IMG/VR virus record: IMGVR_UViG_3300049739_000416 | Location: 1-25,070 of that record | Length of the DNA: 25,070 bases | DNA from: a virus | Reading direction: 5' to 3' (one strand) | Shown here: positions 6,245 to 23,407 of the stretch, one piece after another | Numbering within the stretch: the first letter of the stretch is position 1 | How the letters are laid out: every line of letters begins with the position of its first letter | Notes under the pieces: generated by a model | Databases searched by the model: none | Seen by the model: only the letters and a program-made list of their open reading frames with translations | Told to the model about the DNA's origin: nothing | Translations under genes and position numbers: made by a program

Positions 6245-7429
6245 TTAATATTTTAATTTAAATTTTTTATTTATAACAAACCCACTATCAGTATTTTCCC
6301 ACCAAAACATAGGGCCATATTCGTTATTTTCTCTTGGAGTATTTAATTGTGATTCAGAATAAAATGGATAGTACATATCATCATCACCATCTCCATCTAT
6401 ATCAGTAATATAAACTTGTAACTCTCCCATAAGAGTATGGTCTGTTTCAATAAAGTTTTCTAGGTAAGTATAACTTCCATTATTGTTTTGGAAATATCTT
6501 TGAGTAAAATACGATTTATTATTTTCTACAAGAAACCCACCAATTACCAAATCCCAATCACCATCGTTATCTCCATCTATTATTGCAAATCTTTCTGCAG
6601 ACCATTCAGATGGTGTTCCTGATACATCGTATTTGAAATCCCAACCTGTATTTTCAAACGGAGTAGATATCACACCTACACTACTAGATACTGTAAGTGT
6701 TTTATTATGTGGTCCTAAGTTTACAAAATCTAAATTACCATCTATATCCCAATCAAACTTAATATATAATTCAGATATGAATTGTGGTTCTAATGTGGTG
6801 AGTATAAATGATTCGTTGTTTATGTTTTTAAAATACTCTCCATCCTGCATTGCTTTATGTAAAATATCAACATATCCATCTTTATCAAAATCAAACATAT
6901 GAATACCAAATGAATTATAACTTGGGTCATCAAACATTTCTATAACATCATATTCTAAGTTATCGTTTGATATTAAAAGGTATGTGTTAATACCATAGAA
7001 ATTTGGGTCTGCATTTTGAGTTTCCCATTCACCGAGATATTGTAAAACAAAATCCAAATTACCATCGTTATTAATATCGTGATAATCGAAGTATATATTA
7101 TTTAAAGAATCTCGAATACTTGGATTGTATTCTTTAATATCAAACTCCCATATATCAGAACCTAAATAATCTTTTATATAAAAAATAGGAGGGGATGTTG
7201 TTTGGTTGTTAATTCGTTCCCATGTAATAATATCAGGAATATCATCTTTGTTTATATCATATGGTTCTTGCTTAGATTTAACTACATCATTCCAATTGAT
7301 ATTAAACTTTTCTTTATTAACAGATAAGAGTGTTGGTATTTCTGATGTAATTTCATTTTCAATATACATCTCTTCCGTTTCACATCCTAAAAGAAGGAAT
7401 GTGAGGAGAACAATAAGTAGGTACTTCAT
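6245..7429 (-). CDS. FG-GAP/VCBS-repeat lipoprotein
   Basis: A 394-aa protein beginning MKYLLIVLLTFLLLGCETEE: signal peptide with lipobox LLGC (Cys16), followed by acidic residues typical of exported Bacteroidota lipoproteins. At least six calcium-binding-type FG-GAP/VCBS motifs of the D-x-[DN]-x-D-G/D pattern follow: DINKDDIPD, DINNDGNLDF, DFDKDGYVDI, DWDIDGNLDF, DGDNDGDWDL and DIDGDGDDDM. This spacing suggests a seven-bladed beta-propeller filling most of the protein. Such repeats occur in adhesins and integrin-like surface proteins. Starts 5 nt after the 59-aa gene's stop. A cell-surface role in the infected host is inferred; acquisition from a host genome is plausible. Confidence 0.82.
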   Translation of the reverse strand: MKYLLIVLLTFLLLGCETEEMYIENEITSEIPTLLSVNKEKFNINWNDVVKSKQEPYDINKDDIPDIITWERINNQTTSPPIFYIKDYLGSDIWEFDIKEYNPSIRDSLNNIYFDYHDINNDGNLDFVLQYLGEWETQNADPNFYGINTYLLISNDNLEYDVIEMFDDPSYNSFGIHMFDFDKDGYVDILHKAMQDGEYFKNINNESFILTTLEPQFISELYIKFDWDIDGNLDFVNLGPHNKTLTVSSSVGVISTPFENTGWDFKYDVSGTPSEWSAERFAIIDGDNDGDWDLVIGGFLVENNKSYFTQRYFQNNNGSYTYLENFIETDHTLMGELQVYITDIDGDGDDDMYYPFYSESQLNTPRENNEYGPMFWWENTDSGFVINKKFKLKY

Positions 7430-7433
7430 TGGG

Positions 7434-7613
7434 TTATATTAAATCTTCTTTTATATGAGACCTAAACCCCATTACAGGTATATGACCAGTAATTTCGATT
7501 TCTCTTTTCTTAATAAATTGTTTGGATACTTTTAGGGTTTCTAAATCAGTTTCATTCATTACCCAATCTTTGAATAGGTAAGTTAATAGTTTACTTTTAA
7601 TTGCTTTAATCAT
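7434..7613 (-). CDS. Small basic hypothetical protein, 59 aa
   Basis: ATG at 7613 and TAA at 7434-7436. The product starts MIKAIKSKLLTYLFKDWVMN and ends in a segment containing TGHIPVMGFRSHIKEDLI. It lies between promoter P3 (25 nt leader) and the FG-GAP lipoprotein gene (4 nt gap), so it is the first gene of a two-gene unit. No family recognised. Confidence 0.6.
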   Translation of the reverse strand: MIKAIKSKLLTYLFKDWVMNETDLETLKVSKQFIKKREIEITGHIPVMGFRSHIKEDLI

Positions 7614-7698: not shown

Positions 7699-8724
7699 TT
7701 AAATTATTTCTTTTTTTAACGTAATCTTATCATTGAAAGAATGAGTTACGTTTGGTTTTCCATGTACCTTGTTTAGCTCTTCTAAGAATTGTGAGTATTC
7801 TGAATGAGATGAGTTATGTATTTCTTGTTCTTTAAAATTATTTTGTTGTTCAAATTCTCCCCACTCCACAATAGGATTAAAAAATATAGTAAATTTTTTA
7901 TCACTTCCTTTCATTATAGATTGTATAAGGTTGTAAAAGTTTTTCATATCTTTATAATTTCTTTGTTGTACTACAAAGGAAAATTGTATGGATTTTATTG
8001 TTGGTATAGTTAACACAAAATTAATATTGTTCATTAACTTATTCCAATCACCACCCAATCTTACGATATTATAAACTTCTTGTGTACCAGCATCCATAGA
8101 TATTTCACAAGTGCTAATATACTTATGAACTGGAGTTATTGCCTTCCATGCATTTTCATTCCACAAAGTTCCATTTGTATGAAGGTGAATTTTTTTAAGT
8201 TTAGGAAATTTACTTGCATCAAACTCTCTCATAAATCTCATCATTGTTTTAGAAAAGAAAGGTTCTGCTCCACCACAAATAGAAAGACCTACTAATTCAG
8301 AACCAAGTTGTTCTATTACATTATCCATTATTTTATCCATTTGGATTCTTTGTTCCCCAACAAAGTTTATAAACTCACTTCTACAAGATGGACATCCAAG
8401 ATTACAAGATAAATCAAAACCAAATGTTAACCAATTTAATTTTGGGTTTTTAAATATAGGGTGTGTTTTTGGTTTAAAAGCAGATGGTATGTTTCCTTTT
8501 TTAAATGAAGATAGGTGAGGACAAAGATTTTCTTTACAAAATTTATAAGAACCATCTAATATAGATTCTCTTATTTCATTTGATTTATTACTATTAAAAT
8601 TATCTTTAAAATTATCAGAATCTTTTACATCGGTAGGTAACCAACCAGGACAACAAAGATATTGACCATCGTTTGTTATCTCAGAATATGAGAACGGAGC
8701 GGTACATGCATATTCTTTGTTCAT
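7699..8724 (-). CDS. Radical SAM protein with N-terminal twitch/SPASM-like cysteine domain
   Basis: A 341-aa protein. The radical SAM cluster motif C-N-L-G-C-P-S-C (Cys107, 111, 114) binds the 4Fe-4S cluster that cleaves S-adenosylmethionine. GGAEPF (151-156) is the SAM-binding GGE-like motif. The first 70 residues hold CTAPFSYSEITNDGQYLCC (7-25) plus Cys63 and Cys68. This is the pattern of the auxiliary-cluster (twitch/SPASM) domain, placed before the barrel rather than after it, as in twitch-domain radical SAM proteins of marine phages. Substrate unknown; such proteins modify peptides, sugars or cofactors. The ATG overlaps the preceding oxygenase-like gene by 4 nt. Last gene of the 12983-7699 set. 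Confidence 0.85.
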   Translation of the reverse strand: MNKEYACTAPFSYSEITNDGQYLCCPGWLPTDVKDSDNFKDNFNSNKSNEIRESILDGSYKFCKENLCPHLSSFKKGNIPSAFKPKTHPIFKNPKLNWLTFGFDLSCNLGCPSCRSEFINFVGEQRIQMDKIMDNVIEQLGSELVGLSICGGAEPFFSKTMMRFMREFDASKFPKLKKIHLHTNGTLWNENAWKAITPVHKYISTCEISMDAGTQEVYNIVRLGGDWNKLMNNINFVLTIPTIKSIQFSFVVQQRNYKDMKNFYNLIQSIMKGSDKKFTIFFNPIVEWGEFEQQNNFKEQEIHNSSHSEYSQFLEELNKVHGKPNVTHSFNDKITLKKEII

Positions 8725-9197
8725 ATTAATGTTGTTTCTTTATTTATTTTTTTATACCCAAGATATAATCCATATAGGTAATCCGATTTCATTGGAGGTC
8801 TTTCGTGTTCAATAGTACCCCCTTCAAAAAAATACCCATCACCTACATCTAAAACTATTTCCGTTGGAATATCGTTGTAATAAATAAATAGTGGATTTGG
8901 TTGGTTATCTGATTGTCCTAACATAATACTAAAAGCAACATCTGCTTTACCATCCCAATGTTTATCTAATACATTTCCTCTTACATACTTTCTAATCCAT
9001 GCCTGATGTGGTTCTAGTTTATAATCTATATTTGATTCAAGTAATGGTCTTAACTTGTAACATAAATTCATGGCTACTTCTGAATTGTGTATTATATTAG
9101 AACCTACTACTTGCTTATCTTTGTAGTTATAATTCGAATCGAAGTAATCAATGAATTCAGTACACTCCACTTTTGATAAAATATTTAATAACCTCAT
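8721..9197 (-). CDS. 2OG-Fe(II) oxygenase-like protein, 158 aa
   Basis: A short dioxygenase-type jelly-roll core. WIRKYVRGNVLDKHWDGKAD provides an H-x-D pair (His80, Asp82). A strand (VAFSIMLGQ) and NPLFIYYND follow, then DVGDGYFFEGGTIEHERPP supplies the distal His131. The 2-oxoglutarate-binding Arg/Lys expected about ten residues after the distal His is not obvious (Lys137 or Tyr positions follow), so activity is less certain than for the other oxygenases in this window. Gap of 6 nt from the 452-aa gene and 4-nt overlap with the radical SAM gene, suggesting joint action on one substrate. Confidence 0.65.
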   Translation of the reverse strand: MRLLNILSKVECTEFIDYFDSNYNYKDKQVVGSNIIHNSEVAMNLCYKLRPLLESNIDYKLEPHQAWIRKYVRGNVLDKHWDGKADVAFSIMLGQSDNQPNPLFIYYNDIPTEIVLDVGDGYFFEGGTIEHERPPMKSDYLYGLYLGYKKINKETTLI

Positions 9198-9203
9198 ACT
9201 TCT

Positions 9204-10562
9204 TTATATAAAATGTTTACTAGGTTTCATTGTTTCATCGTTATACATTTTATTAAATGTACATGATACGATAGATTTTTTTATTACATCTTCCATATCA
9301 TCATAGTGTAGTTGTGTTCCTATTTTATTCAACTCATCTTTTATATTATTAGTATCATTACTCAACGAATCATATAGAGAGTTTATCTTATCAAACATAT
9401 CCAATTGTAATATATTTTTATTATTAGGCACTTCTAACAACTTAAGTATATAACCAAATGTATCATGTAGTTGGTTATACTTCGCTCCATAATCCCATTC
9501 CATTTCATCAATATTATCAATTGATGATAGTGGTAGTTTTATAGATTTCATATCAACCAGTGGTATATCATATAATTCCCACCCTTTAGATATCATAAAG
9601 GTTTCAAATAAATGTACTATTGGTACATCGGTCCACTTTAAAAAAGAAAGAGGAGGTTTATCCTTTAGGGATTTTATTTTAATTATATCAGTACTAGTAG
9701 ATACTGTATGGTCAGCAAACCTAATAGAAGCATAAATATCATCTGGATTATCTGTTTCTGTTTTCTTGGGGTGTTTTAATTCTACAAGTGTAGATTCAGG
9801 ATGTGAGGCTCCTTGCCAATCTAAATTCAACCCCATATCCCATGTTCCACTAGAGTGTTCAATATCATGAGAATTTCTATCCAATATATACTCAAATACA
9901 TCTTCACGAGTAAACTTGAGCAAACACTTTGGTCTACATAAAAATTGTCTTAGAGCAATTGTTCTAATAAACAACTCTGATTCATTTGTTAAATTAGAAA
10001 TATCCGTATTTAGATTTATTGTTTCGTTTGATTCGGAAGATATTCCCCATGTGTTTTGTGGAAAGTATAGTGGAAGTTTTTCATAATGCTGATAACGTAT
10101 TATACTATCCATTAACGAACCACGTTTCCATATAAAATAATTAGAAGATACAAATATACAAAAATCACTATCTGTTGATTCGATTATATTATTGTACATA
10201 CAACTTGATAATAGTTTCCAATGATAGGTATGGTCTTTATGATAATGATGTTTTCCGTTTACATAACTTACAGAATTAAAGATATTATGTTTTTTAAATT
10301 CCAATGAAGATATATCATATGATAATCCTGTTCCATATTGTTTTTTAGAATATGGGTAATCTACATTTGAATAATTATCCCAACAGTTCTTAAATGCTTC
10401 ATATGATTCATATGGATTTATATTCATAAAAACTAAGTTAATAGAATATTTAGTTAAATCAAAATCACCAAGAGAATATATTATATTTTTCGTACAGGCA
10501 TCTAATTTACTCTGAGTTAATATACAGAAATTAGTAGGTACTATTATCTTAATTACAATCAT
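9204..10562 (-). CDS. Unknown 452-aa protein, possible glycosyltransferase-like fold
   Basis: Not firmly recognised. The N terminus (IKIIVPTNFCILTQSKLDAC) and a segment near residue 133 (STDSDFCIFVSSNYFIWKRG) resemble the first strand and the DxD-bearing strand of GT-A glycosyltransferases. A central region is His/Trp-rich (GKHHYHKDHTYHWK), and TWDMGLNLDWQG and the second half (KGWELYDIPLVDMK) look like a separate domain. The last 90 residues are charged helices. It lies between two SGNH genes and an oxygenase-like gene, with a 4-nt overlap upstream, so it is probably part of a glycan or surface-modification set; that is inference from position. Confidence 0.45.
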   Translation of the reverse strand: MIVIKIIVPTNFCILTQSKLDACTKNIIYSLGDFDLTKYSINLVFMNINPYESYEAFKNCWDNYSNVDYPYSKKQYGTGLSYDISSLEFKKHNIFNSVSYVNGKHHYHKDHTYHWKLLSSCMYNNIIESTDSDFCIFVSSNYFIWKRGSLMDSIIRYQHYEKLPLYFPQNTWGISSESNETINLNTDISNLTNESELFIRTIALRQFLCRPKCLLKFTREDVFEYILDRNSHDIEHSSGTWDMGLNLDWQGASHPESTLVELKHPKKTETDNPDDIYASIRFADHTVSTSTDIIKIKSLKDKPPLSFLKWTDVPIVHLFETFMISKGWELYDIPLVDMKSIKLPLSSIDNIDEMEWDYGAKYNQLHDTFGYILKLLEVPNNKNILQLDMFDKINSLYDSLSNDTNNIKDELNKIGTQLHYDDMEDVIKKSIVSCTFNKMYNDETMKPSKHFI

Positions 10563-11176
10563 AACAACTTACTTGGATTATCTATTCTATTGATTATTAT
10601 TTCTGCTTTTCGTTTATGTGCACTCCACGAATAATGTCCATCTATAAGTTTTCCATTTGTATCCGATGATATCGTTTCTAGTTTAAAAGAAGGAGACCAA
10701 AAATCAGTATGTTTCCAAAATAACGTATTTATCTTTTTATGTTTTAGAAACTCTAGTAAAGATATGTACATTTTTTGATAATACATTTCATACTCTTTTT
10801 CATTTGGTATAATTTCATCAACAATATAATTTAAAATAGATTCATTGGTTCCTTTTGTATATCCATTTAATGAATCACTTATTGTGTTTCTAACTTCACC
10901 TTGTTCAAAGTTCATTACTCTACATGGCCTTGTATCACCAACAATAACCCAATCACCTTCTTTGTAGTTAATTAGATTACATATAAGTTCATGTAGTATG
11001 TGTTGGTTTGAGTTTCCACCCCAAGCACAATTCTTTTCAATTCCATTTAAGTGTTCTGACACAATTTCAGTCCATCGTTTACATCCATCTATGTATGTCA
11101 TCTCATAATACTCATCTCCCCCATGACAACTATCACCACGAGTAAAGGAATCCCCAAAGAACCAACAAGTTTTCAT
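10559..11176 (-). CDS. SGNH/GDSL-like hydrolase, 205 aa
   Basis: Contains the nucleophile block FFGDSFTRG (Ser10), a GGNSNQHIL segment (53-61) that corresponds to a G-x-S-N/D-x-x-I motif shared by all three SGNH proteins in this window, and an IVGDTRPCR strand (78-86). IDGHYSWSAHKR near the C terminus supplies the D-x-H pair (Asp179, His181). SGNH enzymes hydrolyse or transfer esters, often acetyl groups on glycans. Overlaps both neighbours by 4 nt, next to a second SGNH gene. It could remove or add acyl groups on capsule or virion sugars; the substrate is unknown. Confidence 0.72.
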   Translation of the reverse strand: MKTCWFFGDSFTRGDSCHGGDEYYEMTYIDGCKRWTEIVSEHLNGIEKNCAWGGNSNQHILHELICNLINYKEGDWVIVGDTRPCRVMNFEQGEVRNTISDSLNGYTKGTNESILNYIVDEIIPNEKEYEMYYQKMYISLLEFLKHKKINTLFWKHTDFWSPSFKLETISSDTNGKLIDGHYSWSAHKRKAEIIINRIDNPSKLL

Positions 11177-11796
11177 AATAAATTTGTTTTAATTGGTTGA
11201 GGTGTTTCATCACCTAACTTATTTAAAAGTATTTTATAAATATCGTAACATCCTTTTTTACCAGGATGCCAATCTCCAATTGCTTCACCATCTCCGCTTT
11301 CATCTTGTAAAGTAGAAACTTGAATCAAATCAGTAAAAGATTTTGTATGATGATAAAAAGAATTATTCCAAGTAACAAATATAGGTGAATAATTAAACAA
11401 CAATTCTTTTAGTTTTTTTATAAACTTAATTTCATTATCCAATCCATTTTTTTCCCAACCAATAGTTCTATCTACTTTCATCTTTTCTAAAGTAGGTATT
11501 CTATCCTTTTCAAGTACATGGGAATAATCCCACCATCTACCGTTTTTCAATGGGTTCTGCTTTCCTTTATAAAGTTTTTGTATTCGAGATGGGTGTGACC
11601 AATACATTATTATCCTATCACCATCTTTATATTGTGGTAAGTTTCCTAGCTGAAATATTATTGATATATTATCAGAACCTCGTTCTCCGAGTATTGTTAC
11701 ATCATAGTGTTCTTTTAAATAATCAGTCCAATGGTATGTAGGAATATCCCAATCCACAAAAGAATCACCACATATAAATAATCTTGATTTAGGCAT
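11173..11796 (-). CDS. SGNH/GDSL-like hydrolase, 207 aa
   Basis: Block I is FICGDSFVDW (nucleophile Ser12). GERGSDNISI (37-46) is the conserved glycine block, MYWSHPSRI (64-72) the third strand with a conserved Arg, and GDWHPGKKG (174-182) the C-terminal catalytic D-x-H (Asp175, His177). The gene overlaps phoH by 8 nt and the next SGNH gene by 4 nt. The two adjacent SGNH proteins are similar in length and motif order, so they may be diverged duplicates or subunits working on the same substrate. Confidence 0.78.
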   Translation of the reverse strand: MPKSRLFICGDSFVDWDIPTYHWTDYLKEHYDVTILGERGSDNISIIFQLGNLPQYKDGDRIIMYWSHPSRIQKLYKGKQNPLKNGRWWDYSHVLEKDRIPTLEKMKVDRTIGWEKNGLDNEIKFIKKLKELLFNYSPIFVTWNNSFYHHTKSFTDLIQVSTLQDESGDGEAIGDWHPGKKGCYDIYKILLNKLGDETPQPIKTNLL

Positions 11797-12454
11797 AATT
11801 TTGTAATAACCTTAGTATCTCATCCAATGATTCATGTCTGTGATTATCTAATAAGTTAACTGAGTAAACATATTTAGATTCTTTAACCTTTGGTACTTCG
11901 TGTATAGCGGAATCATTAGCAAACTTCAAATCAATCTGTTGAGGGTCTCCACAAAGAACCATAGTTGAACCTTTACCCAATCTACCCAATACCATTCCAA
12001 GTTGTTGTTTAGTTAAGTTTTGAAACTCATCTACAATGACACAAGCATTATCAAATGTTCTACCTCTAAAGTGAGATAAAGATACCAACTCAATCTTTTC
12101 ATCAGATTCCATCTTTTCTAAAATAGCAGGTTTGTTATAAACCTTTCTCATATTAGAACGAATTGGTACTAACCAAGGTTCCATCTTTTCATCAAGTGAA
12201 CCTGGTAGATATCCATTATCTTCGTTTGATACTGTTGGTCTTGTTATGATAATTTGGTTTATCTTTCGTTGAAAGTACATATCTAATCCAATTTGTACTG
12301 CAAGTAATGTTTTTCCACTACCAGCCTTACCTAAAATAAAATTATAGGGATGATATAAGATATTTGTCTTAGCCATCTTTTGTTCTTCTGATAATGTTAT
12401 GGAAAATCTTACTTTTCCTTTTGGTGGGTTTTTACTAATGTTCTGTGTTGCCAT
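11789..12454 (-). CDS. phoH: PhoH-like ATPase
   Basis: A 221-aa P-loop protein with the PhoH-family pattern: Walker A GKAGSGKT (42-49), TRPTVSNEDNGYLPGSLDEK (71-90; family RPxV...G-x-LPG), RGRTFDNACVIVDEFQN (130-146; Walker B DE), and GDPQQID (169-175). PhoH is among the most frequent auxiliary genes of marine phages; proposed roles are RNA metabolism or helicase-like activity, with a link to phosphate stress in some hosts. The length and motifs are intact. Overlaps the GNAT-like gene by 20 nt and the SGNH gene by 8 nt, so it is co-translated with the modification genes. Confidence 0.95.
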   Translation of the reverse strand: MATQNISKNPPKGKVRFSITLSEEQKMAKTNILYHPYNFILGKAGSGKTLLAVQIGLDMYFQRKINQIIITRPTVSNEDNGYLPGSLDEKMEPWLVPIRSNMRKVYNKPAILEKMESDEKIELVSLSHFRGRTFDNACVIVDEFQNLTKQQLGMVLGRLGKGSTMVLCGDPQQIDLKFANDSAIHEVPKVKESKYVYSVNLLDNHRHESLDEILRLLQNYA

Positions 12455-12983
12455 TATTCTCCTTTATAAAATTATAATTTTTAAAACCATTTTTATAACT
12501 CATGATTGAAGATACTCTATTCCAATTATCAGAATATTGTAATATACAATCATTATTCATTTCGTTTAACCAATAATCAAATGTTAAATTATAAAACACA
12601 ACTCCTGAGTTAGGAGGTCTTTCTACTCTACGAGATAAAAATGCACCTCCACCATATATTTCACCTTCTGATAATTCTTGTATCGATTCTTCCCATAGGG
12701 GTGCTACATTATAATTAGACCACGCCCATCCAATGGGTGAATCGTTATAATTCCAAAATAAGCAATGTGAGTTGTGTTCGAATCTTTTGTGAAGAGTTTC
12801 TTCGGTGGGGATTCCTTCCCACTTAAAATCCAACTTCATTAAATTGGATACTCTTAACAAGTCAGGAAGGTATTGTTCGTAGTTTGATTTATCTACAAAT
12901 AAGGTAGTATAGTTTTCTAAGAAAATAAGTTTCTTGAAATCTTCTTTTAATAACCTTAATTGAATTATTTTAGTTGTATCCAT
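12435..12983 (-). CDS. GNAT-like acetyltransferase (tentative)
   Basis: A 182-aa protein. The central strands FWNYNDSPIGWAWSNYNV and a GEIYGGGAFLSR segment, followed by NLTFDYWLNEMNND and NRVSSIMSYKNGFKNYNFI, resemble the order of the GNAT fold: substrate strand, acyl-CoA strand, and the late asparagine/GF motif of many N-acetyltransferases (N-x-x-S-x-x-x-Y-x-x-G-F). A standard CoA pyrophosphate loop (Q/RxxGxG/A) is not clear. First gene of the set that continues through phoH to the radical SAM gene, 20 nt downstream of a TATTTATA box. Confidence 0.5.
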   Translation of the reverse strand: MDTTKIIQLRLLKEDFKKLIFLENYTTLFVDKSNYEQYLPDLLRVSNLMKLDFKWEGIPTEETLHKRFEHNSHCLFWNYNDSPIGWAWSNYNVAPLWEESIQELSEGEIYGGGAFLSRRVERPPNSGVVFYNLTFDYWLNEMNNDCILQYSDNWNRVSSIMSYKNGFKNYNFIKENNGNTEH

Positions 12984-13017: not shown

Positions 13018-13179
13018 TTATGAATGTTTGGCTAAAACGTACCCTAATAATTCAGATACTACATTATCCATGAATTCTTTTTCAGATTCATCTGGTTGTC
13101 TAAGATTAGAAACATGAGTAGTTCCTGTTTCATGTTTTCTATATATTAGATTTTCTACTTGTGATTTAGTAATTGCCAT
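13018..13179 (-). CDS. Small hypothetical protein, 53 aa
   Basis: ATG at 13179, TAA at 13018-13020. The product starts MAITKSQVENLIYRKHETGT and ends VVSELLGYVLAKHS; it contains SNLRQPDESEKEFMDN in the middle. It fills the interval between the Hint-domain protein and the GNAT-like gene and has an AAAGGATA stretch upstream. Mixed helical character; no family recognised. Confidence 0.6.
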   Translation of the reverse strand: MAITKSQVENLIYRKHETGTTHVSNLRQPDESEKEFMDNVVSELLGYVLAKHS

Positions 13180-13212: not shown

Positions 13213-15114
13213 CTAGGTAAAGTTTTTATTATGTACTACTATTCCATTTGCAATATATGAGTGTAGTTTTTCAACAGTAATATTATAAACTCTTTCTTCT
13301 GAATCTGACCTTACAATTCCTATTGTATTAATCTCTTCCCAATTACCATCTCTTAGAATAGAATCACCAACACTCAGAACTTTAGGTTCTTGTATTGATT
13401 TATATGGTTCATCATTAGGATTTGGTACCAGTGATTTCCAACCATCTTTTGTAAGGAATGGATGTTCTGGTGTAAACTCAATACCAGTATCGTTGATTGT
13501 GTATAGTGATGGCTCATCTCCTAAAGTTTTACAAGCATCACCATGACCTCCAACAGTATGTCTGTGGTCTATTGCACTAACAACAGATGATTCAATTGAA
13601 TTACCATCCCAACCCAATACCTCATCTCCTACTACAATATCTTCAATGTTTTTTGTATCACCATTAGCTAATGATATTTGTGTTCCTGCTGCGAAACAGG
13701 TTATGTTGTGTAGTATGAATCCCAATCCACCAATTGTAGAACCATCAGTTACTAAGATATCCGCGGTTTCAACGTTTACGTTATATGTACTACCTGTTGC
13801 AGTGCTGAGGAAAATCATATATGATTCATCTATTGATATAAGACTACCAGTAGCTGATACTAAATAATCAGAAGAGTTTTTTACTTGAGTAGCTGGTTTA
13901 AATTTGGTTGTATCCGAACCTGAATCATATACAAGTAATTTAGCACTTGTTGGAATATATCGATACTCATCATCACCTGTTACTTTTATTTGAACTAATT
14001 CATTTGAAGCCATAGAGAATGTTGCAAATGATTCGATTACAGATGAGGTTGGTTCTGAACCACTAGCAAATGAATATCCACTTTGTTCCCATCCCATAAA
14101 ATCATTTAATTCACCTGTATCAGGTAATCCGTTTATATAGTACGATTGTACTAAACTACCAGTTTCTAAATCATCCATCGAGATAGGGTCTCCACTGGAT
14201 GAAATAATTCTTTCTGTTTCAAACAAATCACCTTGAAGATGTTGTTCCTTTTTTATAGTTGTAGAAAATTCGTAAAAATGCTTTTGGTTAACCGCATCAG
14301 CATTAGTGAATTGAGTATCATTTATCTCAATAGATGATGGCAAACTTAACATAGCTTGTGTATTATATGTACCAATGTTTATCGTAGATAATGTTCCACC
14401 ATAAACTATACTATAATGTTTTACACTTTGAGCTACACCATCAGTTATAGAATCATTGTGTATTTCAAAATTAGTAACAATTCTATCGGTACTCTCTGAT
14501 AAAAGTAGGTTTACCTTTTCTTCATCAGTTGAACCATTTTTTAATTTTAAGAAAGCTACACTAGATTGTTGTGCAGTTGATTTCATTACTAAATCAGGAA
14601 GGTTACTTGAATTAGTTTCTCTATTTAAAGAATCTATAAATACATCTTCTCCATCTATTGAACTTGAGAACCAAAAAGGAATTGCATTAGATGAAGTGTT
14701 TTCATTAAACAATCTAAGTGAAGATAAGTTGTTTTTAGCATATATGGAATCTAATATAGCATTTTCATCATAAGCTAATCTAAGTATAAATTTACTTTCA
14801 TCATCATCAGGTGATGTTGGATATATTGCATCGAGTGTTTCTTCGTGTTTTACGAAAGAAGTTATTGATGATACATTATCACTTATTGATTGAGATAAAG
14901 CTTCAACAAAATCCGAATGGATTAGTGGCTTATAAACTACTTCAAATGTATCAATTGTAGTTGTATGTTCATCTATTATAGTATGTAGTGGAGATAAATC
15001 TAAATAATTTTCTATAAAATCTTTAGACATACCAGCATCGGTATTTATTTCTAAAAATTTATATCCACCAGATGAATCCTTTACAAAATCAGTTGATATT
15101 AATGTACCTTTCAT
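13213..15114 (-). CDS. Virion structural protein with C-terminal Hint (intein-like) domain
   Basis: A 633-aa protein. Residues 1-472 are Ser/Thr/Asp-rich and beta-like, starting MKGTLISTDFVKDSSGGYKF and LEINTDAG, a start seen in structural proteins of marine T4-like phages. Residues 473-633 form a Hint domain: Cys473 begins CFAAGTQISL (block A), TPEHPFLT holds the block B His, and VYNITVEKLHSYIANGIVVHN forms blocks F/G, ending His628-Asn629. Only KNFT follows, and position +1 is Lys, not Cys/Ser/Thr. Splicing is therefore unlikely; N-S shift with cleavage before Cys473 and Asn cyclisation, as in bacterial intein-like domains, is expected. AAAGGAAA precedes the ATG. Confidence 0.82.
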   Translation of the reverse strand: MKGTLISTDFVKDSSGGYKFLEINTDAGMSKDFIENYLDLSPLHTIIDEHTTTIDTFEVVYKPLIHSDFVEALSQSISDNVSSITSFVKHEETLDAIYPTSPDDDESKFILRLAYDENAILDSIYAKNNLSSLRLFNENTSSNAIPFWFSSSIDGEDVFIDSLNRETNSSNLPDLVMKSTAQQSSVAFLKLKNGSTDEEKVNLLLSESTDRIVTNFEIHNDSITDGVAQSVKHYSIVYGGTLSTINIGTYNTQAMLSLPSSIEINDTQFTNADAVNQKHFYEFSTTIKKEQHLQGDLFETERIISSSGDPISMDDLETGSLVQSYYINGLPDTGELNDFMGWEQSGYSFASGSEPTSSVIESFATFSMASNELVQIKVTGDDEYRYIPTSAKLLVYDSGSDTTKFKPATQVKNSSDYLVSATGSLISIDESYMIFLSTATGSTYNVNVETADILVTDGSTIGGLGFILHNITCFAAGTQISLANGDTKNIEDIVVGDEVLGWDGNSIESSVVSAIDHRHTVGGHGDACKTLGDEPSLYTINDTGIEFTPEHPFLTKDGWKSLVPNPNDEPYKSIQEPKVLSVGDSILRDGNWEEINTIGIVRSDSEERVYNITVEKLHSYIANGIVVHNKNFT

Positions 15115-16732: not shown

Positions 16733-17191
16733 TTACAACCCACCATATTCATCATCATAAAACTGAATATTTATTCCAGCTTCTTCTAACATTGAGAAAC
16801 TTCTGTGATAGTTTTCTTCCCAATGGTCTCCTTTAGTAGTAACACCTCTTTCACAAAAGATTCTTGTGATACCAGCATTTATGATTCCTCTTGCACAATC
16901 TGAACAAGGGATTCCACAACTAAGATACATAGTAGTTCCTTTGGTAGATACTCCTATTCTTGCTGCGTTGTAGATAGCATTTCTTTCAGCGTGTTCAAAC
17001 CAATAATACTTCTCTGGTCTTTCTTGTCTTTCTTTTAGATTATCTTGTAATCCTCTTGGGAATGAATTGTAACCAGTAGATACAATTTCTTTATCCTTAC
17101 CAACAATGATTGCACCAATCTGTGTACTTTCATCTTTGGATTTAAGTTTGACTGTGTGAGCCAGTGTTCTAAAGTATTCTACCCATCTCAT
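16733..17191 (-). CDS. Deoxycytidylate (dCMP) deaminase
   Basis: A 152-aa zinc-dependent deaminase that converts dCMP to dUMP for thymidylate synthesis. The catalytic H-A-E motif is FEHAERNAIYNAA (His67, Glu69) and the second zinc motif is GIPCSDCARGI (Cys96, Cys99). YNSFPRG (41-47) is the substrate-loop motif of the dCMP deaminase/ComEB family, and the N-terminal MRWVEYFRTLAHTVKLKSKD also fits. The length is normal. Overlaps the oxygenase gene upstream by 4 nt. It complements the nucleotidase at 5669-6187 in shaping the nucleotide pool of an AT-rich phage. Confidence 0.92.
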   Translation of the reverse strand: MRWVEYFRTLAHTVKLKSKDESTQIGAIIVGKDKEIVSTGYNSFPRGLQDNLKERQERPEKYYWFEHAERNAIYNAARIGVSTKGTTMYLSCGIPCSDCARGIINAGITRIFCERGVTTKGDHWEENYHRSFSMLEEAGINIQFYDDEYGGL

Positions 17192-17724
17192 AATATATAA
17201 GTATTATCTTTAAGGTTTTTAGCATACAACCATATTACCAAACTATATCGTGTACCTTTTGTTATTTCCAATACTTCATGAGGTTTGGTTGAATCTATTA
17301 GAATTACATTACCAAGTTCTTTACTACAAATAGTAGGCTCATTATTGGAGTAGGTTACCAATTCACCACCATCGTATTCATGTGCATCTGATAATTGTAT
17401 CATTATGGTTAATGTTCTTTCACTCTTACTACTACCATCTATGTGTTTTTTAAAATAAGAACCCTTTTCGTATTTTATTATTACACAATCGTTTTCAGGA
17501 AAACTTTTAACGTTTAGTTTTTGTAATGGTTTTTTTAAAAGTTCAAATACACGAGAACCACTAACATAACAATCTTTTGTTTTTTTGGTACTTTGAACTT
17601 TCGTCTTACTATGTGAATTAGAATTCCAATAAAGAGAAGATGGATGAAATGAAAATCTTCGTGATATCAAACTTAATACTTTATTACAATCTTGCTTAGT
17701 AAGTAACTTTTCTTGTTTAAACAT
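17188..17724 (-). CDS. 2OG-Fe(II) oxygenase, prolyl-4-hydroxylase type
   Basis: A 178-aa protein with the complete facial triad and cosubstrate residue: KKHIDG (His94, Asp96), DGGELVTY (118-125), TKPHEVLEI (distal His149) and GTRYSLVIWL (Arg159). The spacing is typical of the P4H-like family. Phage members are widespread in marine myoviruses, but their substrates (virion proteins, host proteins or modified bases) are not established. Overlaps the 67-aa gene by 8 nt and the deaminase by 4 nt. One of four oxygenase-like genes in this window. Confidence 0.88.
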   Translation of the reverse strand: MFKQEKLLTKQDCNKVLSLISRRFSFHPSSLYWNSNSHSKTKVQSTKKTKDCYVSGSRVFELLKKPLQKLNVKSFPENDCVIIKYEKGSYFKKHIDGSSKSERTLTIMIQLSDAHEYDGGELVTYSNNEPTICSKELGNVILIDSTKPHEVLEITKGTRYSLVIWLYAKNLKDNTYIL

Positions 17725-17920
17725 TTTCCCACTCTATTTCTTCTACTAATTCACAAAACCAATATGTTCCTTCTCTTTGAACTTTAAATGCAGTATCAAC
17801 TCCTAACCATTCTTTAATCAAAGGAGCACTTTTAACTCTATCAATTGGTATTACTGCGTGAATAATATAAAGGTTATCATTAATATATCTTGCTTTTCTT
17901 CTATGAGAGGGAAATATCAT
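17717..17920 (-). CDS. Hypothetical protein, 67 aa
   Basis: Starts MIFPSHRRKARYINDNLYII, then VIPIDRVKSAPLIKEWLGVD, and ends in an acidic segment (CELVEEIEWENV). Predicted alpha/beta. It directly follows the tRNA-Gln gene (13 nt between the mature 3' end and the ATG) and overlaps the oxygenase gene by 8 nt. No family recognised. Confidence 0.6.
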   Translation of the reverse strand: MIFPSHRRKARYINDNLYIIHAVIPIDRVKSAPLIKEWLGVDTAFKVQREGTYWFCELVEEIEWENV

Positions 17921-17932
17921 AATTTGTTTTTG

Positions 17933-18005
17933 TTGTCCCGACAGGTCTCGAACCTATACTCTTCTGGACCAAAACCAGACGTGTTACCAATTACACCACA
18001 GGACA
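17933..18005 (-). tRNA. tRNA-Gln (TTG)
   Basis: A 73-nt cloverleaf. Acceptor TGTCCTG pairs with CGGGACA; the anticodon stem/loop TCTGG-TTTTGGT-CCAGA gives anticodon TTG; GGTTCGAGACC is the T arm. U1-A72 is typical of tRNA-Gln. CCA is not encoded (A then CAA). Confidence 0.93.
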
Positions 18006-18010
18006 TTTTG

Positions 18011-18084
18011 TGGAGGATATCGGATTCGAACCGATGACCCCTACGGTGCAAGCGTAGTGCTCTAGCCAACTGAGCTAATCCCCC
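18011..18084 (-). tRNA. tRNA-Ala (TGC)
   Basis: A 74-nt cloverleaf. GGGGGAT pairs with ATCCTCC (one G-U), D arm GCTCAGTTGGCTAGAGC, anticodon arm CTACG-CTTGCAC-CGTAG with anticodon TGC, T arm CGGTTCGAATCCG. CCA is not encoded. The G3-U70 pair identifying tRNA-Ala is present (third acceptor pair is G-U). Confidence 0.95.
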
Positions 18085-18088
18085 TTTT

Positions 18089-18174
<86 letters not shown>

Positions 18175-18179
18175 TATGT

Positions 18180-18560
18180 TCATAATTTTAGTAATTGTTT
18201 AACTTCTTGTTTCTCAATAGAACCTATCTTATTACCAACTGTTAGGAAAATTGTTCTACTACTATCCCAATCATATTTGTCTAATGTATAGTTTTCTGTA
18301 ACAATAATTCCTTTAGATTTTTTATTCAGTTTTTTTATATTTGATTTAAAGGATGTGTTAAATTCTTTTTTAGATATAACTAATCGTAAGTATGATTTAG
18401 TAAGTACCCCTCCGATATAACTACCCTCTGAGTTTCCATCTTCAAATAAAAATACTACGTTATCACTATCCGCTGATAACTTAAACTTCTCCCCTACAAA
18501 GTTTTGTGAACTGAGTAAAGAAGAAGTTAATAGTAGTATAAATAAAAATACCTTATTCAT
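18180..18560 (-). CDS. Exported hypothetical protein, 126 aa
   Basis: Begins [20 protein letters not shown], a clear Sec signal peptide with probable cleavage near SSQ-N (no lipobox Cys). The mature part is small, basic and beta-rich ([16 protein letters not shown], then [17 protein letters not shown]) with a Lys-rich helical region ([12 protein letters not shown]). The ATG overlaps the stop of the DUF805-like gene by 1 nt. The stop lies 6 nt before the tRNA-Ser 5' end, so mRNA and tRNA share a transcript. No family recognised; periplasmic location is inferred. Confidence 0.68.
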
Positions 18561-19039: not shown

Positions 19040-19060
19040 AATTGTGTTTTAAAAAATTAG

Positions 19061-19134
19061 AGCCTTTAGAGGGACTCGAACCCACGACCTGTTGATTACA
19101 AATCAACTGCTCTAGCCAACTGAGCTATAAAGGC
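19061..19134 (-). tRNA. tRNA-Thr (TGT)
   Basis: A 74-nt cloverleaf. GCCTTTA pairs with TAAAGGC, D arm GCTCAGTTGGCTAGAGC, anticodon arm GTTGA-TTTGTAA-TCAAC with anticodon TGT, T arm GTGGGTTCGAGTCCCTC (one mismatch allowed). CCA is not encoded. Confidence 0.94.
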
Positions 19135-19157
19135 AAACTATTGTTCAATTTAATATC

Positions 19158-19520
19158 TTACATATTCATTCTTAATCTGTAAGATTCTTCTTCTATTTTC
19201 TCGATTCGTTTCATCAACTCTTCGTTGGTAGGTGGAATCATACCTGTTAATTTAGATTCTAATTTATCTAACCTCGAATCTAATTGTCTTTGTAGTGATT
19301 GGTCGATACCAACCATATTTGAATTTATATCTTCAACATCACTATCAATTCTTTGATGTAAATCTCTATCGAGTTTATATACCATTCGTTCAGTATCCTC
19401 CACAAAGGATTCTACATAATTTAACTTTTTTTTTCCATTAAATACACCACTCACCGAATACCCCAAAAGGAATATTAAGATTGATGAGAATGCACCTATT
19501 ACAATATAAAGTGTTTCCAT
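19158..19520 (-). CDS. Membrane-anchored coiled-coil protein A, 120 aa
   Basis: Begins METLYIVIGAFSSILIFLLG, one N-terminal membrane segment, then a charged coiled-coil-like body (VEDTERMVYKLDRDLHQRID, DSRLDKLESKLTGM, EELMKRIEKIEEESYR). The layout is shared with the neighbouring 103-aa protein (both start MET[LF]YI, both have an RID[ST]-[DE]V stretch), so the pair probably arose by duplication. An i-spanin has this plan, but so do many phage membrane proteins; no specific motif decides. Confidence 0.65.
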   Translation of the reverse strand: METLYIVIGAFSSILIFLLGYSVSGVFNGKKKLNYVESFVEDTERMVYKLDRDLHQRIDSDVEDINSNMVGIDQSLQRQLDSRLDKLESKLTGMIPPTNEELMKRIEKIEEESYRLRMNM

Positions 19521-19537
19521 AATTTTATTTTTTTTAA

Positions 19538-19849
19538 TTAATTTTTAGTTTTTCGAAGTTTACTGATAGTATCTTCGAGTTCGTTGATTTTGTTTTCGGT
19601 AATATTCATAATGTTATTAAAGTTTCCATTAGCTGCATTAACTTCAGTATCAATTCTATTTTTGATTTTTTGTAATTCAGCTTCAAGTGTTCCTTCTAAT
19701 GAACTAACCTCACCTTGTAAATCTTCAAACTCACCAAGTACTTCATCATTCTTCTTTTTTAAATTTGAAATAACAAATACACTATAAATTACAGCAGCAA
19801 CTACAAGTGTAAATAATACCCCAAATCCGAATATATAAAATGTTTCCAT
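19538..19849 (-). CDS. Membrane-anchored coiled-coil protein B, 103 aa
   Basis: Begins METFYIFGFGVLFTLVVAAV, a single membrane segment to about residue 29, followed by a continuous charged helix (NLKKKNDEVLGEFEDLQGEV, LEAELQKIKNRIDTEV, ITENKINELEDTISKLRK). Probable paralogue of the adjacent 120-aa gene, 17 nt downstream. The predicted topology is short cytoplasmic start, one helix, long coiled coil. Could form a hetero-oligomer with its neighbour. Confidence 0.65.
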   Translation of the reverse strand: METFYIFGFGVLFTLVVAAVIYSVFVISNLKKKNDEVLGEFEDLQGEVSSLEGTLEAELQKIKNRIDTEVNAANGNFNNIMNITENKINELEDTISKLRKTKN

Positions 19850-19895
19850 ATTTTTATTTTTTTAAATTAAACAATATTTCAAAGAACAATAGTTG

Positions 19896-19967
19896 TAGCC
19901 CCTAGGAGAATCGAACTCCTCTTTCTAGGATGAAAACCTAACGTCCTAACCGATAGACGAAGGGGCC
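19896..19967 (-). tRNA. tRNA-Glu (TTC)
   Basis: A 72-nt cloverleaf. GGCCCCT pairs with AGGGGCT (G1-U72 wobble), D arm TCGTCTATCGGTTAGGACG, anticodon arm TTAGG-TTTTCAT-CCTAG giving TTC, T arm GAGGAGTTCGATTCTCC. CCA is not encoded. Closely resembles Bacteroidota tRNA-Glu. Confidence 0.94.
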
Positions 19968-20001: not shown

Positions 20002-20751
20002 TTAAATTATAGGTTGCTTATATTGAATCGTTGGTATATTTAAATGTTTACATATTTCTTTCATAATAGCAATATGTCCATCAACTGTAAGATGTGTATC
20101 TTGTTGTTGTGTTAGTTTGTTTTTTATTGACCATTTTAACATAGAGTATTCTCCATCAATTGAAAGAAAATTATTGTTTAAAAACAACGAATCATCATAA
20201 CTAATATCAGGCCAGTATAAATAAAGAATATCATTACCACTATCCTTTACCTGTTTTGTTAATTCATTTATTTTGTGAGTAAGTTCATGAAAAGTATTTT
20301 CTTCATCATAAAGATGTGTTAGGTAAAATTCATACCACTTAACTAGTTCATCCATTTCTTCTTTATCTAATCCACTATCCCACCATCTTTGTGCACCATA
20401 CACACTAACTGAACCTATTTCATGGGTTTGAATTTCAAATGAAACTTTATCATCTTTAATATTTGGTTCTATGTTAACTATTGCTGGTTGGAAATCTAAC
20501 CACTTTTTATTAAGAGTACAATAATGAGATACTCTATGTAAGTGGGTTAGTTGACATATAAATAAAGTATCACTTATACCACCTCTTATTTGTTCTTTTA
20601 CATTTCTGATAATGGTATCATTCGATTGACCTGGCCAAGCTAGATTGGAAACTTTAAGATTAGGTGAACTACCAAGCATATTAGGATATGCTTCTTTGAC
20701 TCCAGATATCTGAGAATAAGAACAACCTGTAACTATTATGTTAGTCATCAT
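20002..20751 (-). CDS. SGNH-like hydrolase with GCS nucleophile motif, 249 aa
   Basis: Starts at the ATG at 20751 (or the adjacent ATG at 20748), giving MMTNIIVTGCSYSQISG. The frame extends to 20859, but that part only shadows the neighbouring small gene. The nucleophile motif is GCS rather than GDS, with the Ser kept. AWPGQSNDTIIRNV is the G-x-S-N/D-x-x-I motif seen in the other two SGNH proteins here, CQLTHLHRVSHY is the third strand with the conserved Arg, and DTHLTVDGHIAIMKEI carries the D-x-H pair. Longer than the other two by a central helical insert (KEEMDELVKWYEFYLTHL). Substrate unknown. Confidence 0.72.
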   Translation of the reverse strand: MMTNIIVTGCSYSQISGVKEAYPNMLGSSPNLKVSNLAWPGQSNDTIIRNVKEQIRGGISDTLFICQLTHLHRVSHYCTLNKKWLDFQPAIVNIEPNIKDDKVSFEIQTHEIGSVSVYGAQRWWDSGLDKEEMDELVKWYEFYLTHLYDEENTFHELTHKINELTKQVKDSGNDILYLYWPDISYDDSLFLNNNFLSIDGEYSMLKWSIKNKLTQQQDTHLTVDGHIAIMKEICKHLNIPTIQYKQPII

Positions 20752-20923
20752 CGTAGTGATTCCAATTTTTTTTATGTTTACCTTTTCGAGAATATTCTTT
20801 ACTAGATTTGTGAACTTTTTCAGTAGTCTTTTTACCAATATGATGAGAGGCCTCACCATAGCTCATATCATCCCAACTCAACTTCTCTTGATATGGTTTC
20901 TTTTTCTTCTGTTGTTTCATCAC
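20741..20923 (-). CDS. Small highly charged protein, up to 60 aa
   Basis: Lys/His-rich product ending GKHKKNWNHYDDD. The start is uncertain. ATGs at 20923/20920 give a KKKKPYQEKLSWDDMSYGE start that overlaps the 62-aa gene by about 55 nt. The ATG at 20866, 1 nt after that gene's stop, gives a 41-aa version starting MSYGEASHHIGKK and fits the tiling of the other genes. The SWDDMSYGEA segment looks protein-like, so the longer form is kept. Overlaps the SGNH gene start by 11 nt. No family recognised. Confidence 0.5.
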   Translation of the reverse strand: MMKQQKKKKPYQEKLSWDDMSYGEASHHIGKKTTEKVHKSSKEYSRKGKHKKNWNHYDDD

Positions 20924-22909: not shown

Positions 22910-23407
22910 TTATATTATTTTAGTTTGAGGTTTAAAAAAGATAACTAATGCCTTTCGTATTCCTCTTGTTATTTTAGTAACTTCGTGTCTGTGTTTACGT
23001 CCATCTAACATTACATACTCACCTAGGTTGAATAACCCAATATCGGCATCTTCTATTAAAAAATTACCTCCATCAAAATCATCGGTTAGTAATATAATAG
23101 TAACATTTCTTAAGAAATCTTTATGTTTTGCTGAAAAATCTCCTTCTCCATATTCCATTGTATATAAAGATTCAACTATATTGTTTTTCGAAAACTTATT
23201 GGATAACCAGTTATTAAGTATTTCGTTTTCTGTATTATATACTTGAAAAAGAGTTGGGTTCAAACCACTTCCATTATTTAAAATATATGGATGAGTATCT
23301 TTCCATTCTTCTTGTGCTTCTTCAAATGTAAGTATTTTAGTTTGATTAAGTTGTTCTAATAAAAAACTTAATTCTTCTTTTGATAATATATCTTTAGTGT
23401 AGTTCAT
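22910..23407 (-). CDS. 2OG-Fe(II) oxygenase, prolyl-4-hydroxylase type
   Basis: A 165-aa protein with MEYGEGDFSAKHKDF (His95, Asp97), DDFDGGNFLIED (109-120), HRHEVTKI (distal His141) and TRGIRKALVIFF (Arg151 or Lys152). Length and spacing fit the P4H-like family and resemble the protein at 17188-17724, so the two may be paralogues. The start MNYTKDILSKEELSFLLEQL is the usual helical lead-in. Lies between the Smr-domain gene and a second oxygenase, with gaps of 3 nt on each side. Confidence 0.86.
   Translation of the reverse strand: MNYTKDILSKEELSFLLEQLNQTKILTFEEAQEEWKDTHPYILNNGSGLNPTLFQVYNTENEILNNWLSNKFSKNNIVESLYTMEYGEGDFSAKHKDFLRNVTIILLTDDFDGGNFLIEDADIGLFNLGEYVMLDGRKHRHEVTKITRGIRKALVIFFKPQTKII

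Follow-up and report, generated by a model that had tools for sequence, protein, structure and literature searches.

The IMG/VR virus record IMGVR_UViG_3300049739_000416, an AT-rich stretch of 25,070 bases analyzed over its whole length and referred to here as the window, carries nearly all of its real genes on the minus strand, including all the protein genes given with coordinates below. At positions 7699-11796, five adjacent genes encode, in order of transcription, two SGNH-like proteins (SGNH1, 207 residues, 11173..11796, and SGNH2, 205 residues, 10559..11176), an orphan protein of 452 residues (U452, 9204..10562), a 2-oxoglutarate/Fe(II) (2OG) oxygenase-like protein (158 residues, 8721..9197) and a twitch-like radical S-adenosylmethionine (SAM) enzyme (341 residues, 7699..8724). 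These genes represent one version of a modular enzyme cassette with recurrent partners and a shared C-terminal tail. They are preceded by genes for a PhoH-like ATPase (11789..12454) and a GNAT-like protein (12435..12983), and the junctions from GNAT to radical SAM measure -20, -8, -4, -4, +6 and -4 nucleotides (nt). The initial annotation was thus right about the seven open reading frames (ORFs), their overlaps and the 6-nt gap. The overlaps exceed chance, since the 20-nt GNAT/PhoH overlap recurs in three related contigs (L005, L006 and L011), and the SGNH1, SGNH2, 2OG and radical SAM genes, at 70-82% identity, are again joined by -4 nt junctions in a fourth (L002). Its proposal that all seven genes form one translation-coupled unit does not hold: GNAT and PhoH are part of a conserved backbone, and only the last five genes constitute the variable unit.

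Eighty PhoH-bearing viral contigs were fetched, and every window gene was mapped onto them. About 20 related contigs have in common, on one side, dCMP deaminase, g15143, a protein combining ATP-grasp-like and Hint domains (hereafter the Hint protein), GNAT and PhoH, and, on the other side, g7434, HAD, g5280, g4954, Hsp20, g2852 and a UV endonuclease. Between PhoH, the upstream edge, and g7434, a conserved protein of 59 residues (7434..7613; 19 related loci) forming the downstream edge, lies a slot whose contents differ from contig to contig, cargo being swapped wholesale between relatives. L005 and L006 have a nearly empty slot; it holds PhyH and methyltransferase genes in L004, a methyltransferase gene in L011, one sulfotransferase-like gene each in L012, L014 and L036, a radical SAM gene (35% identical) in L017 and L018, and GT2, GT25 and sulfotransferase-like genes in L003. 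The window version reads SGNH1-SGNH2-U452-2OG-radical SAM and that of L002 reads SGNH1-SGNH2-2OG-radical SAM; because the SGNH2 and 2OG genes of L002 overlap by 4 nt, U452 was either gained or lost cleanly at that coupled junction. PhoH (PF02562, E-value 6.3e-49, 166.7 bits versus a cut-off of 27) is more than 80% identical in many contigs, and is preceded in about 15 relatives by the fast-evolving GNAT-like protein, for which matches are weak (PF00583 in 4 of 13 relatives, best E-value 0.016; diamine N-acetyltransferase in the PDB, E-value 0.0065). Membership of these two proteins in a common pathway, as initially proposed, is not supported, both being conserved backbone and lacking the tail. 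The nearest sequenced isolate, Flavobacterium phage Immuto, is distant (48% identity in two proteins), and sequence similarity makes a host among the Bacteroidota plausible. No defence system was detected by PADLOC among the seven genes, its one weak match, to a homing endonuclease, falling into the Hint domain of the neighbouring protein. The interval from g7434 to HAD is variable too and in the window encodes an FG-GAP repeat lipoprotein (6245-7429), and the slot of another contig (L020:8340-9518) encodes a 392-residue protein with HIGH- and KMSSSKGN-type motifs like those of class I aminoacyl-tRNA synthetases.

Since Pfam misses the GNAT, SGNH-like and 2OG proteins when they are searched singly, their labels require family-level evidence. 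The radical SAM enzyme, 80% identical in L002, scores above the cut-off of PF04055 (E-value 6.4e-7) and exhibits an invariant CxxxCxxC motif at C107/C111/C114. Five N-terminal cysteines (C7, C24, C25, C63 and C68), likewise invariant in an alignment of four sequences, fit a predicted auxiliary Fe-S cluster of the twitch-domain type. We class the enzyme as twitch-like only, because its match to the twitch-domain model NF033640 (E-value 1e-19, 70.6 bits) stays below the curated cut-off of 170. For the 2OG protein, the family alignment reveals an invariant HxD...H triad (H80, D82 and H131), with a match to phrog_2954 (3e-15) and matches of relatives to PF13640. In the SGNH family alignment, Ser, Arg and His are invariant and Gly, Asn and Asp near-invariant: S12 (block I) and H177 (block V) are retained throughout, D175 (block V) nearly so, a conserved N43 follows directly after the block II Gly, and some members match Pfam GDSL. 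The block III Asn (GxND) is absent, that region having an invariant R71 instead, and for this reason we speak of SGNH-like proteins rather than SGNH members. Among cultured phages, tblastn found no relative of the radical SAM enzyme, SGNH1 or SGNH2, and for 2OG it gave matches in cyanophage S-RIM50 only. A protein of that phage, gp201 (L087:5878-6450), is annotated as ferrochelatase, which is also the label of phrog_2954, and yet has the 2OG triad and aligns with the window protein; the 2OG-ferrochelatase pairing reported in pelagiphages (PMC9599517) may partly stem from this label.

U452 had been described as glycosyltransferase-like, a view that gains no support. It has no relative in viral contigs, GTDB genomes, INPHARED phages, 50 related records or any of the fetched loci, and no match in Pfam, PHROGs, NCBIfam or PDB sequences; moreover, comparison by hhalign with every island family, including glycosyltransferase profiles, yielded probabilities of at most 0.5%. 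Structure prediction, proposed for comparison with GT-A folds, was carried out with AlphaFold2 (AF2) from the single sequence and gave an unusable model (pLDDT 31.6). Nothing marks U452 as a structural protein either.

The feature that unites U452 with its neighbours is a C-terminal tail with the consensus K-K-[KTSN]-[LI]-[LI]-COOH, found in cassette enzymes of five unrelated families. It was first seen while aligning the SGNH family and then tested across all loci, a tail being defined as a polar residue followed by two of ILVMF at the C-terminus, with K/N/R just before. All five cargo proteins of the window possess it (LKKEII in radical SAM, KETTLI in 2OG, IKTNLL in SGNH1, NPSKLL in SGNH2 and KPSKHFI in U452), and PhoH, GNAT and the Hint protein do not. 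Among 243 non-redundant cargo proteins, the last residue is Ile in 57% and Leu in 24%, the penultimate one Leu in 55% and Ile in 22%, and K/T/S/N with lysines further upstream precede this hydrophobic pair. The pair closes the chain in 84% of the proteins; it sits one residue inward in 5% and two to five residues inward in less than 3%. Three trivial origins were considered and rejected. A by-product of ATGA gene overlaps is ruled out, as 103 of 124 non-overlapping cargo genes keep the pair versus 83 of 615 other genes (Fisher 2e-52, uncorrected for relatedness) and tail Ile codons (ATT 0.44/ATA 0.55) follow genomic usage (0.44/0.44); hence the tail is selected as amino acids. An effect of AT-rich composition is ruled out by the low share of hydrophobic ends (13%) among the remaining genes of these contigs, and a general phage feature by the 6% in other phage lineages and by its absence from the glycan gene cluster of Immuto and from the 2OG proteins of cyanophage S-RIM50, which differ in this respect from the cassette.

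The tail is likewise rare outside the cargo: among 66 bacterial radical SAM homologues from GTDB genomes none has the full tail and one has the hydrophobic pair, and it occurs in 0 of 25 Hint proteins, 2 of 18 GNAT proteins and 0 of 9 carbamoyltransferases. Conversely, the tail predicts function. Among the clusters picked by the tail only are a tryptophan halogenase (PF04820, 5e-94), Methyltransf_24, GT25, a B12-binding radical SAM protein, a sulfotransferase-like protein and an RmlD-like reductase; a zinc-ribbon protein and one PAP2 protein came up as well. Of the 158 genes of a 128-kb record, 16 are tailed, about half of them in enzyme islands. The 145-kb record G056 has 14 such genes out of 145, and eight of these surround the Hint gene in a single 11-kb island. 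Tailed genes outside islands look like the background rate. Further tailed members of the cargo families are encoded elsewhere in the window, that is, a second 2OG-Fe(II) oxygenase (17188..17724; PF13640, 1.4e-14; tail NTYIL), a third SGNH-like protein (20002..20859; assigned to the SGNH1/SGNH2 family by iterative profile; tail YKQPII) and a third 2OG-Fe(II) oxygenase-like protein (22910..23407; assigned by the 2OG family profile; tail PQTKII).

The combination of enzymes also recurs in other phages. When the four aligned radical SAM proteins served as query, 80 further loci came up, of which 45 remained once near-duplicates were discarded. On several phage backbones, the radical SAM genes of these loci adjoin 2OG, SGNH-like and sulfotransferase-like genes through coupled junctions of -1 or -4 nt. 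Within three genes of radical SAM, 2OG is found in 25, SGNH in 18 and sulfotransferase in 14 of the 45 loci, as compared with two 2OG-family genes (0.3%) and none of the other families among the 610 genes that flank PhoH in phages of other lineages. A reciprocal scan seeded with SGNH1 only gave 16 true loci (about seven independent contexts), with 2OG adjacent or one gene away in all 16 and radical SAM within a few genes in most. Neighbours that do not stay together in relatives, named in the initial annotation as evidence against its proposal, are seen for U452 and PhoH and not for SGNH, 2OG and radical SAM. In the open-access literature we found no description matching either radical SAM/sulfotransferase/2OG phage cassettes or the tail. 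The nearest precedent for the radical SAM genes is a T4-like marine genome with 12 of them, linked to Fe-S metabolism (PMC5332604), which, like NF033640 twitch proteins, belongs with the window enzyme as regards superfamily and as regards radical SAM runs before tail sheath genes (L109, L112 and L115); the window enzyme, however, scores below the family cut-off, and that paper is not about tagged modification cassettes. Such runs, of four to six paralogous genes mostly encoding 400-460 residues, were seen in L109, L112, L115, L119, L120, L127, L157 and L158, and in L109, L112, L115 and L127 they lie just before the tail sheath and tube genes.

Upstream of the slot, the Hint protein (13213..15114, 633 residues) offers itself for consideration as a partner of the cargo. 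Pfam Hint and intein models match it, and its AF2 model, computed with 24 relatives, reached a pLDDT of 74.6. In this model the N-terminus resembles, weakly, ATP-grasp proteins of the glutathione synthetase type (glutathione synthetases and YjfC), residues 296-466 appear to adopt a degenerate Hint fold missed by sequence searches, and residues ~470-633 form a canonical Hint domain (VIA-align Z 20.7 to BIL2). The first Hint ends in His-Asn in all members, H469-N470 being invariant and C473 near-invariant, and what follows varies between more Hint domains (as in the window), short tails and, in the relatives L272, L274, L275, L276 and L277, Cys-/aromatic-rich peptides of 25-40 residues. The protein shares its Hint fold with bacterial intein-like (BIL) and pretoxin Hint domains and differs from them by the ATP-grasp-like N-terminus and the second, degenerate Hint; splicing is not expected in the window protein, because K follows its final HN. 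Its N-terminal part is present in 17 of 19 radical SAM records of at least 75 kb and in none of the six large records examined from other lineages. Directly after its gene lies a conserved ORF for 53 residues (13018..13179) that belongs to no known family and has counterparts of 45-52 residues ending in (A/N)KHS/L in most relatives. In PhoH contigs of another lineage (L026-L049), a Hint domain near 18.4-20.6 kb is followed by long collagen-like GAQGPKG repeats.

Taken together, these findings lead us to regard it as probable, though only just, that the five genes are one version of a modular cassette of an uncultured aquatic tailed phage in which the tail serves as docking or sorting signal and the enzymes have a common target. 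The tail would be read by one common partner, and because of this the enzymes would act on one target in series: 2OG would hydroxylate it, the radical SAM enzyme would perform C-H chemistry, the SGNH-like proteins would add or remove acyl groups and, in relatives, sulfotransferases, methyltransferases and glycosyltransferases would decorate it. The target may be a phage-encoded protein or peptide rather than DNA, with the neighbouring Hint protein as the best candidate for hub or substrate. The chemistry at hand (hydroxylation, radical C-H chemistry, sulfation, methylation, halogenation, glycosylation, and acyl transfer or hydrolysis) is no less suited to a protein or peptide than to a glycan. 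The initial annotation finds support in the coupled set of modification enzymes, which recurs in other phages, in the GT25, GT2, sulfotransferase-like, methyltransferase and PhyH genes that fill the slot of relatives, and in the tail that links U452 to the enzymes; PhoH and GNAT drop out. Several points weigh against the docking signal and the common target: (i) the partner reading the tail is putative, and a degron or another role would be compatible with the data; (ii) a shared substrate is likewise a prediction; (iii) U452, having no relatives, is placed in the pathway by position and tail; (iv) carbamoyltransferases in the same loci lack the tail; (v) the ATP-grasp assignment is weak (Foldseek E-values 0.004-0.017); and (vi) the loci used to test the tail are for the most part those in which it was first noticed, with related rows from which only identical ends were removed. 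Closest to independent checks are the radical SAM homologues from bacteria, the clusters selected by tail and the parts of G056 outside the island. The alternatives considered in the following are not exclusive of this reading or of each other, and our confidence in them overlaps.

It is possible, if less than probable, that the cassette alters the host envelope polysaccharide, thereby masking receptors or excluding superinfection, which is the usual reading for glycan genes of marine myophages. Acyl groups of glycans are a frequent substrate of SGNH-type proteins, GT25 and GT2 share the L003 slot, RmlD-like, sulfotransferase-like and methyltransferase genes occur elsewhere, and Immuto has a glycan gene cluster. 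However, the window holds no sugar-nucleotide pathway, tryptophan halogenase, B12-radical SAM and twitch radical SAM enzymes are unusual for glycans, and the glycan genes of Immuto lack the tail. The hypervariable islands of marine phages (cyanophages and pelagiphages) with glycan and 2OG genes (PMC9599517) resemble the present loci in that sets of 2OG-Fe oxygenases and glycosyltransferases are variable and exchanged; here, in contrast, twitch-like radical SAM, SGNH-like, sulfotransferase-like and halogenase genes are joined by a common C-terminal tail.

Somewhat less credit is due to a maturation process like that of ribosomally synthesized and post-translationally modified peptides, in which the tagged enzymes would act on a C-terminal peptide of the ATP-grasp-like/Hint protein, freed by the Hint fold after the invariant His-Asn. 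Twitch radical SAM enzymes, halogenases, 2OG enzymes and sulfotransferases are known peptide modifiers, and Cys-/aromatic-rich tails of 25-40 residues follow His-Asn in other lineages; but only KNFT follows the last Hint of the window, cleavage and modification are both predicted, and the Cys-rich tails could simply bind metal. It is tempting to speculate, although we consider it unlikely, that aquatic phages encode an interchangeable modification system in which enzymes of many unrelated superfamilies are recruited by the tail to the ATP-grasp-like/Hint protein and modify its C-terminal peptide before Hint release, with 2OG, radical SAM, SGNH-like proteins, sulfotransferase, halogenase, methyltransferase, glycosyltransferase and orphans of the U452 type counted, in the same doubtful scenario, among the enzymes so recruited.

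Short C-terminal signals for sorting or degradation, such as the MuA-like motif recognized by ClpX, encapsulin cargo peptides and PTS1, show that a few C-terminal residues can be common to unrelated proteins, as in the cassette. Since the ClpX signal of MuA (RRKKAI) consists of basic residues followed by a hydrophobic C-terminus, a composition seen again in the tail, the latter might be a degron limiting the lifetime of the cassette enzymes, whose genes would then share timing and not a substrate. We hold this to be rather improbable, as it leaves unexplained why, among many variable genes, the tail is restricted to modification enzymes; the cassette tail differs from the signals named above in being confined to phage modification enzymes and in having no known receptor. 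An equally doubtful proposition is that unrelated useful genes merely gather at a tolerant site, without any pathway. The fast turnover of cargo, exemplified by the insertion or loss of U452 between SGNH2 and 2OG, is what such a hotspot would produce, but the recurrent family combinations in unrelated backbones and the shared tail are not. Finally, a DNA hypermodification pathway is very improbable: base modification in phages does involve 2OG and radical SAM enzymes, and Immuto has a 7-deazaguanine pathway, but in Pfam and PHROGs the cargo matches neither TET/JBP nor any other DNA-modifying enzyme, apart from a weak match of 2OG to a 'DNA endonuclease' PHROG, and it is swapped within one slot, differing between close relatives.

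As regards the remainder of the window, an 88-residue ORF at 17917-18183 is a tRNA array (Gln, Ala and Ser) read as protein, and tRNA-Thr and tRNA-Glu follow further on (19060-19967).

The customary treatment of variable enzyme islands in marine phages is an inventory of single auxiliary metabolic genes that recognizes no common logic. A common tail on unrelated folds provides a way to recognize the genes of one system, and it picked the halogenase and the B12-radical SAM protein unaided. The tail moreover predicts a single receptor or scaffold, and thus allows a direct test for a tail binder. Should the target turn out to be a virion protein or peptide, the cassette would constitute a phage-borne system of post-translational modification with an enzyme diversity comparable to that of bacterial natural-product clusters.

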